64,000 nt of DNA, from positions 1 to 64,000 of the forward strand of contig JAPPFC010000004.1 in NCBI GenBank assembly GCA_028824015.1, written 5' to 3'. Of this stretch, positions 8,617-29,320 are shown in pieces (position 1 is the first letter of the stretch; each line of letters opens with the position of its first letter). The position numbers were made by a program, and so were the translations under genes. Below the pieces are notes generated by a model. It saw nothing but the letters and a program-made list of their open reading frames with translations. It had not been told where the DNA came from and did no database searches. This stretch comes from a bacterium. GTDB lineage: Bacteria > Actinomycetota > Acidimicrobiia > Spongiisociales > ZC4RG35.

Positions 8617-9314
8617 TCTGCACATGGGGGGCCGCCACCCACCTGGGGTACGGCCCCGAGATAAACCAGGATCGCATGTATCCCCAGGGGTCGGGCCGGT
8701 CTGCCGAGCCGGTGGTGATGATGGTGGCCGACGGGCTGGGGGGAGAAAAGTTCGGGCACGTCTCCGCCGAGTTGGCCGTCACCACGGCTCAGGCGGCGTC
8801 CGGCTCTCCCGCCGACCGGGTGAGAGCAGCCAACGACGCCATCCTGCAGTTGGTGGAACGCGAGCCCCGCTGGAAGGGGACCTACACCACCCTCACGCTG
8901 GTGGAGTTCTCCGAAGGGGTGGCCCGCGTCGCCCACGTGGGGGACACCAGGGCCTATCTGTACCGGCAGGGCCGGATCATGGAGTTGACCAACGACCACA
9001 CCGTTGCGTGGCAGTGGGTACAGCGGGGGATGGACCCGGTTGCGGCCGACAACATGCCCAACTCGGGAAGCCTGGTCAGGGTGCTCGGTTTCAACGCGGA
9101 ACTGGAGGTGGAGGAGACGAAGATGTCGCTCAGGGACGGAGACCGGTGGATGATCTGTTCCGACGGGTTGTACAGGATGCTCTCGGACCGGGACATGAGG
9201 AGAGTGCTGGAGAGCGGAGACGCCGAGGAATGTGTGTGGGGTCTGCTGGAGAAGGCCCTGAGCAGAGGCGCATCGGACAACGTCACGGTAGTGCTGGCTG
9301 ACATCTCGTCATGA
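8613..9314 (+). CDS. pstP: PP2C-type Ser/Thr protein phosphatase
   Basis: 233 residues forming only the PPM/PP2C catalytic domain. Metal-ligand motifs are 'ADGLGG' near residue 40, 'HVGDTRAYL' near 110, 'CSDGLYRML' and 'ASDNVTVVL' at the C terminus. Unlike mycobacterial PstP there is no transmembrane helix or ectodomain, so it should be cytosolic. It overlaps fhaB and rodA by 4 bp each, so translation is coupled. It should dephosphorylate PknB and its substrates. Confidence 0.9.
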   Translation: MICTWGAATHLGYGPEINQDRMYPQGSGRSAEPVVMMVADGLGGEKFGHVSAELAVTTAQAASGSPADRVRAANDAILQLVEREPRWKGTYTTLTLVEFSEGVARVAHVGDTRAYLYRQGRIMELTNDHTVAWQWVQRGMDPVAADNMPNSGSLVRVLGFNAELEVEETKMSLRDGDRWMICSDGLYRMLSDRDMRRVLESGDAEECVWGLLEKALSRGASDNVTVVLADISS

Positions 9315-10582
9315 GATTGGTGACCGAGGCGGCCTGGGTGGCCGGTTCGGCGGCAGTCGCCGGCTTGGGCGTGGCCTTGGTCGACTTCGGGAAGACCGGG
9401 CAGGTGAGTGGGGCGGCCGGTGTGGTGTTCCTGGCTTTCGGTTGCTGTCTGGCAGGGTTGGTGGCGGCAGTGCGGCGATGGGCGCCGGGGACCAGTTCCT
9501 TCCTGCTGTGGCCGACCGCATTGCTGGTGGCCCTGGGGTTGGTGGAGATCTATCGAATCGATCCCATGGGAGCGCCGATCCAAATGTGGTGGGTGGTGGC
9601 CGGTGTCGTGGCCGCCATCTGGGTCCTGGCGGCCTTCCGGTTGGGAGTGGAGAGGCTCATGTCGGTGAGCTACTGGCTGGCCGCCGGCGGACTGTGCCTG
9701 ATCATTCTTCCCTTTCTTCCTCGCCTCGTGGACGGCAATTCGGGCGACGCCGCCGGGCTGTGGTTGACCATCGGGTGGGGGAACGTCTCGTTCATAGCCC
9801 AGCCCTTTGGATTGGGAGCGGTGTTGTTGACGGTCGGCCTGGCCGGCATTCACTCGCGATGGGCCCTGGACCCACCGCCGGCAGGGGCGGGGAGTCGGCT
9901 GGTCTCGCTGAGGAATCACCTGGTGGTAGCGGCCGTCTGGGTCACAACGCTGCCGCTCCTCTGGGCTACAGGTGACCTGACCGCCTGGGCGATGCTGGTG
10001 GTTCTGTCAGCCACCATTGCCTACGCCGCCGCCGGCGACACCCGGGTGGTCTGGACAGGTCTCGGGCTTGTGGGGATCGGTTCCGTTGCCGGGCTGACTT
10101 CCTCCCGGGTCTCACAGACCCTGGATGTCTGGCTGGATCCCTTCTCGGCCGGGGAGGCGGGCGCCGGTTTGAAGGAGAGTCTGCTGGCGCTGGGCAGCGG
10201 CCATCTGTCGGGTTCCGGCCTCGGGATGGGTGATCCCGAGTTGATCCCACGCGCCACCAGCGATTGGATCCTGGCCGCCTTGGGGGAGGAACTGGGGTTG
10301 GCGGGAACGGTGGCGGTGATAATGCTCTACGGGCTGGTTACGGCGGCGGGGGTGGGAATCGCCATCGCCTCCCGTGACCTCTTCTGCAAGGTGACCGCCG
10401 CTTCGCTCTCGTTCTTGTTGTGCCTGATGTTTCTGGCCGGCGCCGGGGGCCTGGAGCGTTTGCTGCCGCCCACCAACCTGGGATTGCCCCTCCTGGCCTA
10501 CGGGGGAGTCCCCCTGGTGGCGGGCTGGTTGGCCATCGCGCTCCTGGTGAGAATCAGCCATGAGGAGAAGGGACACCTGTGA
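9311..10582 (+). CDS. rodA: RodA/FtsW-type SEDS peptidoglycan glycosyltransferase
   Basis: A 423-residue polytopic protein with about ten transmembrane helices. The FtsW/RodA/SpoVE C-terminal block has 'DWILAALGEELGLAG' and, near the end, 'PPTNLGLPLLAYGG', which match the conserved periplasmic loops of SEDS polymerases. It overlaps pstP (ATGA) and pbpA (GTGA). As part of this operon it should polymerise glycan strands with the adjacent transpeptidase during cell elongation. Confidence 0.93.
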   Translation: MRLVTEAAWVAGSAAVAGLGVALVDFGKTGQVSGAAGVVFLAFGCCLAGLVAAVRRWAPGTSSFLLWPTALLVALGLVEIYRIDPMGAPIQMWWVVAGVVAAIWVLAAFRLGVERLMSVSYWLAAGGLCLIILPFLPRLVDGNSGDAAGLWLTIGWGNVSFIAQPFGLGAVLLTVGLAGIHSRWALDPPPAGAGSRLVSLRNHLVVAAVWVTTLPLLWATGDLTAWAMLVVLSATIAYAAAGDTRVVWTGLGLVGIGSVAGLTSSRVSQTLDVWLDPFSAGEAGAGLKESLLALGSGHLSGSGLGMGDPELIPRATSDWILAALGEELGLAGTVAVIMLYGLVTAAGVGIAIASRDLFCKVTAASLSFLLCLMFLAGAGGLERLLPPTNLGLPLLAYGGVPLVAGWLAIALLVRISHEEKGHL

Positions 10583-11949
10583 ATCGCTCCATCCGCCGGG
10601 TGGCCCTGCTCTTGATGGTCGGGATGGTTGTGTTGGTGGTGGGGGCCACCTGGCACCAATTCGTGGCCGCCGACAGTTATCGGAACCATCCCGACAACCG
10701 GCGTAGGGCCCTCCTTCAGGCGGGCAAGGAACGGGGGATGATCAGCACCGTCGGGGGAAGGGTCCTGGCCTATTCCGAGCAGGATCCCGACAGCTTCCGC
10801 TCCTACAACCGAAGGTACCCCGCCGGGGAGGCCTTTCGGTCCGTGTTGGGTACGGAGGACGCGCCCGGAGGCTTGGAGGAGGTCTATGCCGACGAGTTGC
10901 GTTCCCGTCGAGACCTCACTGTCTCGGATTTGATGGCGGCCATGTTCGGTGAAGACCTCCGTCCCCGCGGGCTGCAGATAACGCTGGACGCCGATCTCCA
11001 GCAACGAGCCTATGAGATCCTGGCGCGCCGGCGGGGGGCGGTGGCCGCTATCCGTCCCGATACCGGCGAGGTACTGGCGCTGGTCTCCTCCCCCCGGGTT
11101 CCCGTGACCGAAAGGGCGGCCGGGGTCCTCTATCCGGTCGGGTCGGTCTTCAAGATCGTCAGCGCGGCCGCCGCCCTGGACACGGAGACCGCCGACGTCG
11201 AGAGCCTCTTCGAGGACCGCGCGGTATGGCAGATTCCGGGAGCCACCCTGGTGGTCACCAACCCCGGGAACGTCCCATGCGGGGACGCGGCGCAGGTCAG
11301 CCTGCTCACCTCCTTCGTGTTCTCCTGCAACCTGGCCTTCGCCGAACTGGCTTTGGAAATGGGCTCGGAGATCATGGATGCCTATGCCGCCGCTTTCGGG
11401 TTCGAAACGGCGATGGAGTTTCCCCTCGAAACGCCGGTGCCGTCTTTCGGAGCAGAGCGGTCCTCCGATCCCGACCTGCTGGCTTCGGCGGGAACCGGCG
11501 GACTGGCCCTCTCCTCGCCTCTCCACATGGCCTCGGTTGCGGCGGTGGTGGCCAACGGAGGACTGAGGGCGCCACCCTACCTGGTTGCGAGTTGGACGGA
11601 TGCAGACGGTGAGGTGAACGAGCGGCCCGAAACGCCTGAGGCGAACCGGGTGACAACCCCCGAGACAGCCGCCTCGGTGGCCCGCATGATGGAGCGTGTG
11701 ATAACGGAGGGCACCGGTCAGGAGGCCACGGTGGCGGGCCACCGGGTGGCCGGAAAGACCGGCACGGGACAGGATGCGGACGGGCGCAATCACGCCTGGT
11801 TCGTGGGATTCGCTCCCGTGGATTCACCCACCATCGCCTTGGCGGTGATGATCGAGCCGGGAGGGGAATTCGGAGAATCGGTGACCGGGGCGACCGCCGC
11901 GGCGCGCGTCGCATCCGAGTTGCTCTCCTATTGGCTGCAGCGAAGCTAG
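10579..11949 (+). CDS. pbpA: Class B penicillin-binding protein PbpA
   Basis: 456 residues with an N-terminal membrane anchor (about 7-27) and a periplasmic transpeptidase domain. Active-site motifs are SxxK as S189-V-F-K192, SxN as S249-C-N251, and KTG at 393-395, all present and in order. The dimerisation module is short compared with larger class B enzymes. The GTG start overlaps the rodA stop by 4 bp, consistent with a SEDS-bPBP pair. A 69-bp gap separates it from pknB. Confidence 0.94.
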   Translation: MNRSIRRVALLLMVGMVVLVVGATWHQFVAADSYRNHPDNRRRALLQAGKERGMISTVGGRVLAYSEQDPDSFRSYNRRYPAGEAFRSVLGTEDAPGGLEEVYADELRSRRDLTVSDLMAAMFGEDLRPRGLQITLDADLQQRAYEILARRRGAVAAIRPDTGEVLALVSSPRVPVTERAAGVLYPVGSVFKIVSAAAALDTETADVESLFEDRAVWQIPGATLVVTNPGNVPCGDAAQVSLLTSFVFSCNLAFAELALEMGSEIMDAYAAAFGFETAMEFPLETPVPSFGAERSSDPDLLASAGTGGLALSSPLHMASVAAVVANGGLRAPPYLVASWTDADGEVNERPETPEANRVTTPETAASVARMMERVITEGTGQEATVAGHRVAGKTGTGQDADGRNHAWFVGFAPVDSPTIALAVMIEPGGEFGESVTGATAAARVASELLSYWLQRS

Positions 11950-23985: not shown

Positions 23986-24127
23986 TTCTGCCCCTGTCGA
24001 GGGAGGCCGGAGGAGTCGGGAACCTGTGTGACTACTTTGCGGTCTGCCGAGTAGTCTGAGAGATTTGTGCCAACTTCATGATATGTGGGGGTGGTTTGTC
24101 ACACCTGGTGGGCAAACTGGTAGGGAC

Positions 24128-25348
24128 GTGAGCAAAGCAGATTTGAACGGGCAGGAACTGAACCAAGCCGTGGTCCTGGCGCCCACTTTGTCGGTGGGTG
24201 ACGCTACGGTGGCTGAGCTTCGGGATCGGGTGCTGTCCACTATTCGTGGGGAGAACCAACTGGCGGGGATCCGCGCCGAAGCCTTGGCCGAGTTGCAGCG
24301 TCGGGCGGGAACCGAGTTGACCGAGGTGGAACTGCGGGAGAGGGGCAAGAAACCCCGCCGGCGGGCACGGTCGGAAGTGGAAACTGCTCGGGAACTGGAG
24401 AAGCTTCCCGAGACGTCCAAGGGCCTCCGAGACGGGGACATCCCATACGACAACGCCCGTATCCTGGCCGACGCCAACCAACGGGCCCCGATAGACGAAA
24501 AAGAACTGCTGGACGACGCCCGCAACCAGTCTCCAGACAAGTTCGCGGCGACGGTCCGCAAACACGAACAACAACGCTCCACAGACGACGGGGTCTCGAA
24601 ACTGCAGCATCAACGTTCGCGTAGGTACGCCAGGATCCGAACGGCCATCGAAGACGGGATGACCGTTCTGTATGGGAGGTTCGACCCGATCACAGGAGCG
24701 CGGATCGAGACCGCCCTGTCCCGCAAGATGAACGAACTCTGGCAACAAGAAGACCCGAACAACCGGGCCACACCGGCCCAGAGAATGGCCGACGCCCTTG
24801 CTCTGTTGCTCACCCGCCCCGGAGGCGACAAGGACGGAGCGTCCCAGGACGTGAAACTGTTGGTGATCGCCGACTATGACGTGGTGAGCCAACAGTTGCG
24901 CAATGCCCGTTTGGAGAACGGGACTCCCATCCCGGCGGGGGAACTACGCCGGTTGGCATGCGACGCGCAGATCCTCCCCGCCATCTTCGGGGGACCGTCG
25001 GTACCGATGGACATGGGCATGGCCCGGCGGAAAGCCAGTCCCACCCAACGCGCGGCTCTCATCGCCCGCGACCGGGCATGCATAGGGTGCGGCGCCAAAG
25101 CAGCATGGTGCCAGTCGCACCATATTGTTCACTGGCAGGACGGAGGGCCCACCAACGTGGACAACATGTGCCTGCTCTGCTCCCGATGCCACCACAACGT
25201 CCACGACCGCAACTGGCAGGTCGAACGAACCCCCACCGGCGCCTACCGACTACACCCACCGCCACCCGAACGAACACACTCCCCACAACCCAAACACCAA
25301 CACCAGCCACGCCGCAGGGCCCTCCACCCAACCAAACAAAGAAAATAG
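24128..25348 (+). CDS. DUF222/HNH endonuclease family protein
   Basis: About 406 residues from GTG 24128 (preceded by GGTAGGG); a TTG at 24065 and an ATG at 24083 are alternative starts. The N-terminal ~280 residues are the DUF222 (13E12-like) domain. The C-terminal HNH nuclease has 'CIGCGAKAAWCQSHHIVHW' followed by 'NMCLLCSRCHHNVH', with paired Cys and His ligands. A very basic, Pro/His-rich tail follows. Such genes are abundant and multicopy in actinobacteria, often as mobile or phage-like passengers. The role is uncertain. Confidence 0.88.
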   Translation: MSKADLNGQELNQAVVLAPTLSVGDATVAELRDRVLSTIRGENQLAGIRAEALAELQRRAGTELTEVELRERGKKPRRRARSEVETARELEKLPETSKGLRDGDIPYDNARILADANQRAPIDEKELLDDARNQSPDKFAATVRKHEQQRSTDDGVSKLQHQRSRRYARIRTAIEDGMTVLYGRFDPITGARIETALSRKMNELWQQEDPNNRATPAQRMADALALLLTRPGGDKDGASQDVKLLVIADYDVVSQQLRNARLENGTPIPAGELRRLACDAQILPAIFGGPSVPMDMGMARRKASPTQRAALIARDRACIGCGAKAAWCQSHHIVHWQDGGPTNVDNMCLLCSRCHHNVHDRNWQVERTPTGAYRLHPPPPERTHSPQPKHQHQPRRRALHPTKQRK

Positions 25349-27301: not shown

Positions 27302-29320
27302 ATGGTTCTTTCTACAGGTGATGTGACAACCAATCCGTTGAGTTTGGCGGATGAACTCGTCCTGATGCTCCTCAACGAGGAGAACGGCTACTTTCACCAG
27401 GTGCCCGGCTGGGACCTGAACTGCGCGGTCATCGGGGCGGTACTTGCAGAACTTTCGCTCATGGCCCGTATCGACACTGATATGGAGTCGCTGTTCCTTC
27501 TGGACCCGACGCCAACCGGCAATCCCGCCTTGGACCCGATCCTGGCGGAAATCGCTGCTGAACAGGTCCAACGAAGCGCCCAATACTGGATCGAACGGCT
27601 CGCTCCCCATGCGGAATCGATCATTGATCTGACTCTTGACCACCTGGTTGACCGGAAGATCCTGCAACACCACAACGGGGACTTCTGGACGCTGGCCCAC
27701 ACCAAGGGAGACGTGGAGCTGTTCAACGGCGCCGGCGGAATCCAGTTCGTCAAGACCCGCATCAGCCAGGCCATCTTCAATAAGGAGATTCCCCACCCGA
27801 GGGACATCATCATCATCTGTCTGGTCAACGCGTGTGACGTCTTCCGCTTCATGTTTCAACTGGATGAGGAAGCGGAGGAGCGCATCGAGTTCATCTGCAA
27901 CATGGATCTCTTGGGCCGTTCCATCGCCGCCGCGGTCTCCCACAACATGGCCGGCGCTTTTCTTCGACCTTCCGCCCTGAGCAAGAAGATACCGGTCGTT
28001 CCCTTGCGTAAGCTGCTGTTCAACTCGAACATGCGCCAGGGGAACATCCCCGCGCTCTTTGCGGATCTGGCCAAGGAGTACGGCCCGGCGTTCCAACTCC
28101 GCCCACCATTCGTCGGTCCGAAGATCTTCCTCGCCGGGCCGGAGATGAATCACTGGGTCAACCGCAGCGGACGCATGTACCTCAGGGCCAAGGACTATTT
28201 CAGCGACTTCGAGAAGGTCTATGGCGCCAATGGAGTCCTGCCTTCCCTGGATGGCGCCGACCATTTCCGGCTTCGCAAGTCCATGGCGCCTGCGTATTCC
28301 CGCAGGAGGCTGGCGGGTCAACTGGAAGACGTCTTTGGTCAAATACGAGAGCACATGACGACATGGGAGGTCGGGGATTCCTACCCTGCCACCAGCATGT
28401 GCCGGCGGCTGGTGAACGCACAAATCTCGCCTCTCATGGTCAGTGTTCACTCCCAGGACATCATCGACGACCTGATGACCTACAAGGAACGAGCGCTGAA
28501 CACCCACATCGTCAGGGTCCTGCCCAAGTTCATGCTGAGGACTCCCGGCATGAAACGCCGAGCAAAGGCCGTCGAGACGTTGCTGGAACGGGTCCGGAGC
28601 GGACACACCCCCGCTCAGCGGGCCGGAAGACCGCGGGACCTCGCGGATGACTTTCTGAGCCTGCACGCCAGCGATCCGCAGTTCGTACCCGAGTCAAACC
28701 TGACTTTCGCTTTTGCAGCAGCGCTGATTGCCAGCGTGTACCTCGGCGATGCGGTCAGCTTCGCCCTGTACGCCATGGCGGCGCATCCGGGCCTTCAAAC
28801 CAGAGTTCAGAGTGAAGCCGATGCCCTGTTCGCCGACGGCCTTCCCGACGGCCGGGACTTCCACCCCTCCAAGATCGACGTCACCCATCGCATGATGATG
28901 GAATCTCTGCGCATCTACCCGATCGTTCCGATGTCGTTGCGGAACGTCATGAATTCATGTCTGGTCCAGGGATACGAGTTGCCGTTGGGGTCACGGGTCC
29001 ACATCGCCCAGACCGCCACCCACTACATGGAAGATGTCTTTCCCGAGCCCTTCAAATTTGACATCGACCGCTACCTGCCCCCGCGTCTCGAACACCAGGG
29101 TCCTGGATACGCACCCTACGGCCTGGGCACCCACAAGTGTCTCGGGTCCCGGTGGATGGAACTGCAGTTGACCACCAACGTGCTACTGGTGGCGCACCAC
29201 TTCACGCTGGAAGTGTCCCCTTCCAACTACAAGCTCAAGTTCAGCCCCTTGCCCTCTCTCAAACCGAGCAAGAAACTGAAGTTCCGCATCGCCGAGCAGA
29301 GGAACGAGATCCGCCTCTAG
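27302..29320 (+). CDS. GPP34 (GOLPH3-like) domain fused to cytochrome P450
   Basis: 672 residues. Residues ~13-225 match bacterial GPP34: LADEL at 15-19, 'AVLAELSLMARI' at 46-57, DPTPTG at 68-73, 'LDHLVDRKIL', and 'RDIIIICLVNACDVFRF'. Residues ~235-672 are a cytochrome P450: K-helix ExxR as Glu534-Arg537, and heme loop YGLGTHKCLGSRW with Cys613 as thiolate ligand. The I-helix (about 474-484) reads ALIASVYLGDA, so the usual acid-Thr pair for O2 activation is absent. GPP34 may dock the enzyme on membrane lipids. The 3' end is 34 bp from the convergent MMPL gene. The domain fusion lies within one uninterrupted frame. Confidence 0.85.
   Translation: MVLSTGDVTTNPLSLADELVLMLLNEENGYFHQVPGWDLNCAVIGAVLAELSLMARIDTDMESLFLLDPTPTGNPALDPILAEIAAEQVQRSAQYWIERLAPHAESIIDLTLDHLVDRKILQHHNGDFWTLAHTKGDVELFNGAGGIQFVKTRISQAIFNKEIPHPRDIIIICLVNACDVFRFMFQLDEEAEERIEFICNMDLLGRSIAAAVSHNMAGAFLRPSALSKKIPVVPLRKLLFNSNMRQGNIPALFADLAKEYGPAFQLRPPFVGPKIFLAGPEMNHWVNRSGRMYLRAKDYFSDFEKVYGANGVLPSLDGADHFRLRKSMAPAYSRRRLAGQLEDVFGQIREHMTTWEVGDSYPATSMCRRLVNAQISPLMVSVHSQDIIDDLMTYKERALNTHIVRVLPKFMLRTPGMKRRAKAVETLLERVRSGHTPAQRAGRPRDLADDFLSLHASDPQFVPESNLTFAFAAALIASVYLGDAVSFALYAMAAHPGLQTRVQSEADALFADGLPDGRDFHPSKIDVTHRMMMESLRIYPIVPMSLRNVMNSCLVQGYELPLGSRVHIAQTATHYMEDVFPEPFKFDIDRYLPPRLEHQGPGYAPYGLGTHKCLGSRWMELQLTTNVLLVAHHFTLEVSPSNYKLKFSPLPSLKPSKKLKFRIAEQRNEIRL

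Follow-up and report, generated by a model that had tools for sequence, protein, structure and literature searches.

Sponge sterols whose side chains are alkylated serve as fossil traces of the earliest animals, and it is debated whether bacteria help to make them (PMC10070321). Bacterial sterol 24-C-methyltransferases (SMTs) found in sponge metagenomes have been shown to alkylate sterols in vitro (PMC10070321), and for symbionts of Ircinia horizontal transfer of steroid gene clusters has been reported (PMC9531527). In the eukaryotic protein GOLPH3 a hydrophobic hairpin enters the bilayer when the protein is bound to COPI, and R90, R171, N172 and R174 make up the binding site for phosphatidylinositol-4-phosphate (PI4P) (PMC12494035; PMC4414131); W81, R90, R171 and R174 have been listed as the residues of the PI4P pocket (PMC4414131).

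Here we describe a gene of an acidimicrobial bacterium that joins a GPP34 (GOLPH3-like) domain to a cytochrome P450. It lies in the window, the 64,000-nucleotide stretch of DNA that was analysed. P450s, GPP34 domains and sterol clusters of bacteria are each known already; their combination and its spread are, as far as we could find, new in the literature searched. An earlier note on this DNA knew of no described example, and in the literature searched this held: a GPP34-P450 protein is nowhere mentioned in the papers on sponge-symbiont steroid clusters and SMTs that were searched, and the texts of Kelly 2022 (PMC9531527), Brown 2023 (PMC10070321) and a third sponge paper contain neither GPP34 nor the fusion P450. 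The protein is not a one-off, however, but belongs to a widespread family of sponge symbionts.

Results

Architecture of the fusion protein

A single 672-codon frame with an N-terminal GPP34 domain and a C-terminal P450, as read by the earlier note, was borne out by Pfam and by fold matches (Table 1). Both Pfam matches are far over the curated cut-offs, with an E-value of 3.5e-28 and 99.5 bits (cut-off 29.1) for GPP34 and of 2e-34 and 119.6 bits (cut-off 22.8) for the P450, and the motifs LADEL (15-19), DPTPTG (68-73), ExxR (534-537) and Cys613 were all found where that note had placed them. AlphaFold gave concordant models for the whole protein (pLDDT 81.5) and for its GPP34 part alone (81.2). 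The closest folds to the latter were those of human GOLPH3 (9qpq; 196 residues, Z 19.5) and of Vps74 from yeast (Z 18.3), the best unrelated fold reaching only Z 5.3; by domain and by fold the N-terminal part is a member of the GPP34/GOLPH3 family. The P450 part matched solved P450 folds with Z ~34 over 400-430 residues. Its haem-thiolate cysteine, in a GxxxCxG-type loop (YAPYGLGTHKCLG), is invariant in 52 fusion sequences, and E534 and R537 of the K-helix ExxR motif occur without exception in the 52 aligned fusions. Cys loop, ExxR and fold make the protein a member of the P450 superfamily. An RNA-family scan of the window showed nothing remarkable near the gene.

Table 1. Positions of the features described in the text (coordinates without prefix are those of the window)
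Feature	Position	Strand	Basis or remark
GPP34-cytochrome P450 fusion gene	27302..29320	+	672 aa, one uninterrupted frame
GPP34 (GOLPH3/Vps74-like) domain, residues 15-212	27344..27937	+	Pfam PF05719; fold match to GOLPH3
Predicted beta-hairpin, residues 121-131, equivalent to membrane-inserting hairpin of GOLPH3	27662..27694	+	AlphaFold, profile alignment, conservation
Cytochrome P450 domain, residues 238-660	28013..29281	+	Pfam PF00067; P450 folds Z ~34
Atypical I-helix centre, residues 477-484 (ASVYLGDA)	28730..28753	+	52-sequence alignment, P450 comparison
ExxR motif, residues 534-537	28901..28912	+	E534 and R537 invariant
Haem-ligand Cys613	29138..29140	+	invariant
FAD-dependent amine-oxidase-family oxidoreductase, 462 aa	25737..27125	+	Pfam PF01593, synteny
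MMPL/HAE3-family transporter with sterol-sensing-type matches, 822 aa	29355..31823	-	Pfam MMPL and Sterol-sensing, synteny
Rieske oxygenase with KshA C-terminal domain, 396 aa	31820..33010	-	Pfam Rieske and KshA_C, synteny
DUF222-HNH endonuclease gene	24065-25348	+	
HpnC/HpnD pair and HpnE-like gene, window genome	G000:C8, L104:4767-8043	+	HpnE assigned by eye
Stand-alone GPP34 protein, window genome	G000:C46:141018-141617 (L071:8974-9621)	-	38% identical to fused domain
34% GPP34-P450 paralogue and squalene-hopene cyclase, Holophagales	L101:7152-9161 and 9158-11140	-	
Squalene epoxidase-oxidosqualene cyclase fusion, Nitrospira MAG	L022:13081-16740	-	
Second, partial fusion copy, Latescibacteria genome	L052:3-1556		
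Triterpenoid-type cluster, Planktothrix agardhii plasmid (L078)	NZ_LR882940.1, 44835-58007		

An atypical P450 active site

In the centre of the I-helix the A-G-H-D-T-T of the compared P450s is changed to A-S-V-Y-L-G, with one residue fewer, in all 52 members, and Tyr480 and Gly482 are invariant among them. Thus the acid-alcohol pair (A/G-G-x-D/E-T) of O2-activating monooxygenases is absent in every member, and ordinary O2 activation and monooxygenation are therefore uncertain. The P450 domain may not be an oxygenase and may instead catalyse a peroxide-driven reaction or the isomerisation, dehydration or desaturation of a triterpenoid. The replaced pair, the shortened helix and the invariant Tyr480, found in all 52 members beside a retained Cys613 and ExxR, argue for such a reaction, but some P450s without the conserved threonine, such as P450eryF and P450cin, still hydroxylate, and we regard a non-oxygenase as possible but on the unlikely side.

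Among the matches compared, those in the plasmid collection and the PDB, the best identities over the full P450 domain were 29% and ~20%, respectively; a named CYP family needs at least 40%, and on these matches none was assigned. The fold matches to CYP184A1, CYP46A1, CYP170A1 and CYP51 were tied within 1 Z. As sterol and non-sterol P450s are tied, the ranking shows the fold only and was rejected as a guide to the substrate.

Linkage to sterol and triterpenoid genes

Of 57 genomes with the fusion 48 had an SMT, whereas the 14 controls had none; in the other nine fusion genomes no SMT was found, in some of them possibly through incompleteness of the MAG. Of 60 genomes related to that of the window, all eight with the fusion but only one of the 52 without it had an SMT (Fisher 3.5e-9), and for 79 genomes related to one of Holophagales the corresponding numbers were 18/18 and 1/61 (Fisher 7e-17), values which treat related, and hence not independent, genomes as separate.

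At the level of the family, linkage to sterol gene clusters (SMT, CYP51, ERG24, oxidosqualene cyclase) is present. In the Nitrospira MAG L022 a stretch of 10 kb holds the fusion gene together with two SMT genes, a gene in which squalene epoxidase is joined to oxidosqualene cyclase, and a bona fide CYP51 (E 1e-100 against the Methylococcus enzyme), and an ERG24-type reductase is found farther along the same contig. This locus is a de novo sterol synthesis cluster with its own CYP51, and the coexistence of the two P450s led us to reject the fusion as a CYP51 equivalent. The squalene epoxidase and oxidosqualene cyclase of these Nitrospira MAGs share one frame of ~1140-1220 aa, which was also seen in L035 and, by similarity, in L051; a literature search for squalene monooxygenase-oxidosqualene cyclase fusions turned up no obvious description.

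In the Holophagales locus L101 a GPP34-P450 paralogue of 34% identity shares 4 bp with the end of a squalene-hopene cyclase (SHC) gene, to which it is also adjacent in L102 and L103, an arrangement that suggests a membrane-docked hopanoid P450 in Holophagales. The top stand-alone P450 match in the plasmid collection, 29% identical, is from Planktothrix and belongs to a triterpenoid-type cluster. On the plasmid of P. agardhii a squalene-cyclase-family gene, a squalene/phytoene synthase and four P450 genes were noted. Taken together, the three independent contexts in Nitrospira, Holophagales and Planktothrix point to polycyclic triterpenoids as substrates, and to sterols for the subfamily of the window.

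The eight Acidimicrobiia fusion genomes (G000-G005, G051, G058), all at least 94% complete, were searched for a squalene/oxidosqualene cyclase (PF13243), and none was found in any of them, which speaks against de novo sterol production there. The window genome contains an HpnC/HpnD pair and an HpnE-like gene; judging from these it can probably make squalene, and, given such precursor genes, a divergent cyclase could have been missed. The substrate might be another triterpenoid, a hopanoid, squalene or a linear precursor, as the coupling of the 34% paralogue to SHC and the presence of squalene genes without a cyclase would allow. The subfamily of the window co-occurs with SMT and not with SHC, however, and none of the eight Acidimicrobiia carriers has a cyclase, which makes this alternative improbable for the window's protein.

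Gene neighbourhood and genome content

Within the window only the Rieske oxygenase, the FAD-dependent oxidoreductase and the MMPL transporter are adjacent to the fusion gene. No SMT adjoins it there, the two SMTs of the genome being located on other contigs, and no electron-transfer partner was found in the gene cassette. The genome also has two ERG4/ERG24-type reductases. Taking into account that SMTs and sterol reductases are present but a cyclase is not, we infer that the lineage of the window takes up and remodels sterols of its host.

Over the 54 loci described below, many of them truncated in their flanks where a contig stops, a Rieske/KshA-like oxygenase was near the fusion in 37, an RND transporter in 28, an SMT with a Sterol_MT_C domain in 25, the FAD oxidoreductase in 20 (79-94% identical across loci) and the MMPL transporter in 12, the last being retained at the loci of Acidimicrobiia and Chloroflexota. 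Among solved proteins the Rieske oxygenase comes closest to 3-ketosteroid 9alpha-hydroxylase (KshA; E 2e-25) and the FAD oxidoreductase to LkcE (E 1e-27). The MMPL protein is similar to HpnN, a transporter of hopanoids (E 1.5e-35), and less so to BstA, which transports sterols (E 6e-8). In L016, L028, L029, L048 and L056, for the most part loci of gammaproteobacteria and gemmatimonads, a gene for an MpaB/Lcp-type oxygenase was repeatedly encountered close to the fusion. In the window the cassette is directly preceded by a DUF222-HNH endonuclease gene, which was seen at the same place in the congener loci L014 and L015 and was not detected in L013, L016 and L017.

These neighbours could also be read as a catabolic set, in which the P450 starts the oxidation of host sterol for carbon and the KshA-like Rieske enzyme attacks the ring. 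The Rieske neighbour does have a degradation enzyme as its closest solved relative, and host sterol in a sponge would be a carbon source, but the partners of the fusion include SMTs, which build up side chains, and ERG4/ERG24 reductases, and the Nitrospira copy sits in a cluster for de novo synthesis. Judged by these partners, sterol degradation is a poor candidate.

The GPP34 domain and the membrane

In the profile alignment the PI4P-pocket residues W81, R90, R171 and R174 of GOLPH3 fall on P35, I44, E105 and I108 (confidence is moderate around P35), and Glu105, at the position of R171, is nearly invariant in the fusion family. The strands E121-124 and E128-131 of the AlphaFold model form a predicted hairpin at the place equivalent to that of GOLPH3; F128 and W129 in it are conserved, and the hydrophobic hairpin position is kept. 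The model suggests that the protein may dock peripherally on the membrane through this hairpin, without PI4P. The earlier note had proposed membrane-lipid docking of the P450 or a lipid-sensing oxidation enzyme. The membrane-lipid connection holds, with a sterol or another polycyclic triterpenoid as the most likely lipid, whereas PI4P docking is not supported, all four pocket positions being replaced. Recognition of PI4P or a related phosphoinositide, which would target the P450 as it does GOLPH3 at the Golgi, agrees with the shared fold but not with the lost pocket residues, of which R171 is changed to a nearly invariant Glu; it is very improbable and was rejected on the residue alignment. 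PI4P synthesis is not known from bacteria. The genome of the window also encodes a GPP34 protein that stands alone and has 38% identity to the domain in the fusion.

Conservation of the family

The architecture is intact in all five congeners at 85-91% identity and, at 64%, in two genomes from another family of the same order. A scan of ~85,000 genomes gave 54 fusion loci, nearly all full length, with 57-91% identity; the search for further GPP34-P450 proteins, which the earlier note had proposed, thus yielded about 50 more full-length or near-full-length loci. The fusion is nevertheless rare; among 396 genomes sampled from the phylum of the window, only the window's own genome had it. Two distant subfamilies have the same architecture at ~42-44% (second copies in L041 and L048) and ~34% identity, so that the GPP34-P450s are a widespread sponge-symbiont family with at least three subfamilies. 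Relative to close relatives dN/dS was 0.05-0.11 for the GPP34 part and 0.09-0.14 for the P450 part, i.e. both halves are under purifying selection. Full-length conservation, low dN/dS and the existence of distant subfamilies show that the join of the two domains is old and maintained. An assembly error, frameshift or pseudogene, conceivable since the assemblies carrying the fusion are metagenomic, can be dismissed on the intact copies in ~55 genomes from independent projects, several of them closed or near-closed, and on the dN/dS of ~0.1 in both halves; nor can the fusion be put down to chance. The Latescibacteria genome L052 has, upstream, a second, partial copy ~71% identical to that of the window, which points to duplication.

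Hosts and horizontal transfer

The fusion genomes are labelled Acidimicrobiia, Chloroflexota/SAR202, Nitrospira (Nitrospirota), Gemmatimonadetes (Gemmatimonadota), Holophagales/Acidobacteria (Acidobacteriota), Latescibacterota, Gammaproteobacteria and, in one case, an Alphaproteobacterium (Proteobacteria). Among those with a traceable source most are MAGs of sponge symbionts. Isolates with the prefix jk18x are Ircinia symbionts (PMC9531527); going by the names, the prefixes RHO, COS, SB and MPM would point to Rhopaloeides, Coscinoderma, Ircinia ramosa and Aplysina, which are among the sponges studied in PMC8163846 and PMC9531527, and 'Plut' is probably the coral Porites lutea. Several copies from independent assemblies sit on single multi-megabase contigs (2.5-6.3 Mb in L024, L027, L052, L059 and L066), therefore the spread is not due to misbinning, although the copy in L028, nearly identical to gammaproteobacterial ones, could be misbinned.

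Between the window genome and the other phyla RpoB is 49-57% identical, whereas identity is 64-74% for the fusion, 80-86% for the FAD neighbour and 68-72% for the MMPL neighbour. Inside the order, by contrast, RpoB is the more similar of the two, with 70% as against 63-64% for the fusion. That the fusion exceeds RpoB in identity across phyla shows that the gene moves horizontally. In the gene tree the genus of the window falls among Chloroflexota, far from the other Acidimicrobiia, in broad agreement with transfer, but a single clade of Acidimicrobiia was not rejected in the AU test (p 0.27), and the claim of transfer is therefore based on the identities relative to RpoB and not on topology. 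No record of the plasmid collection spans 80% of the fusion query and none of the viral contigs encodes a relative; on these searches carriage by plasmid or phage was rejected.

Discussion

We consider it fairly likely that the fusion protein is associated with the membrane and that its P450 oxidises a polycyclic triterpenoid, with a sterol as the best candidate, as part of a sterol-modification set exchanged horizontally among symbionts of marine sponges. Most likely the fused GPP34 domain would serve as a peripheral membrane anchor that acts through its hydrophobic hairpin and does not recognise PI4P, and this anchoring would let the P450 reach a substrate dissolved in the bilayer. Sterol P450s of eukaryotes have an N-terminal transmembrane anchor, a place which in the fusion would be occupied by the GPP34 domain.

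In the lineage of the window the substrate would probably be a host-derived sterol, remodelled together with the Rieske oxygenase, the FAD oxidoreductase and the MMPL transporter. A coherent candidate scheme would run from side-chain oxidation or desaturation through methylation by SMT to ERG4-type reduction. Oxidation or desaturation of the side chain, feeding the SMT, is our first choice for the reaction of the P450, but it is a guess to be held only tentatively. Combined into one proposal, the GPP34-P450s would form a new P450 family, docked to the membrane and acting on triterpenoids by non-canonical O2 chemistry, whose members in cyclase-less symbionts edit the side chains of cholesterol-type host sterols for the SMTs; as a whole this must be called doubtful. 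If it were true, members of many bacterial phyla would together produce sponge-type sterols out of precursors supplied by the host, by means of a shared mobile gene set.

The fusion gene is a strong, earlier unnoticed candidate for a missing sterol-processing step in symbionts. Since it is present even where the lineage apparently cannot cyclise squalene, remodelling of host sterols by symbionts becomes directly testable. The bacterial GPP34 domains gain a plausible job as the membrane-docking module of a lipid enzyme, and the GPP34-P450s offer a P450 family with an unusual active site.

Comparison with known systems

The steroid clusters of Ircinia symbionts (Kelly 2022, PMC9531527) and the sponge SMTs (Brown 2023, PMC10070321) share with the present family the hosts and phyla, the genes for SMT, CYP51, ERG24 and cyclase, and horizontal transfer, but in the lineage of the window SMT and fusion occur without a cyclase. 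The likeness to KshA and SdmA belongs to the Rieske neighbour and not to the fusion, and that to SdmA, an enzyme of C-4 demethylation, is weak (E 2e-8, 33.5 bits as opposed to the 600-bit cut-off of the model). With GOLPH3 and Vps74 the fusion has in common the Pfam GPP34 domain, the fold of the whole domain and the hydrophobic position of the hairpin, whereas it differs from them in being bacterial, in being joined to an enzyme and in its replaced PI4P-pocket residues.

CYP46A1 (cholesterol 24-hydroxylase) is among the top folds (Z 34.4), and sterol side-chain oxidation would suit an SMT pathway, but the identity is 15%, the match is tied with the non-sterol CYP184A1, and CYP46A1 is a eukaryotic enzyme with a transmembrane anchor. 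The CYP51 group, including the CYP51-ferredoxin of Methylococcus capsulatus (6mcw, 7jj1), resembles the fusion in its P450 fold (Z ~33.5-34), in being bacterial, in belonging to a sterol cluster and in having a second fused domain. Identity over the P450 part is ~20%, however, and the fusion does not have the I-helix of CYP51; moreover, the partner of the M. capsulatus CYP51 is a ferredoxin, whereas here it is a GPP34 domain.
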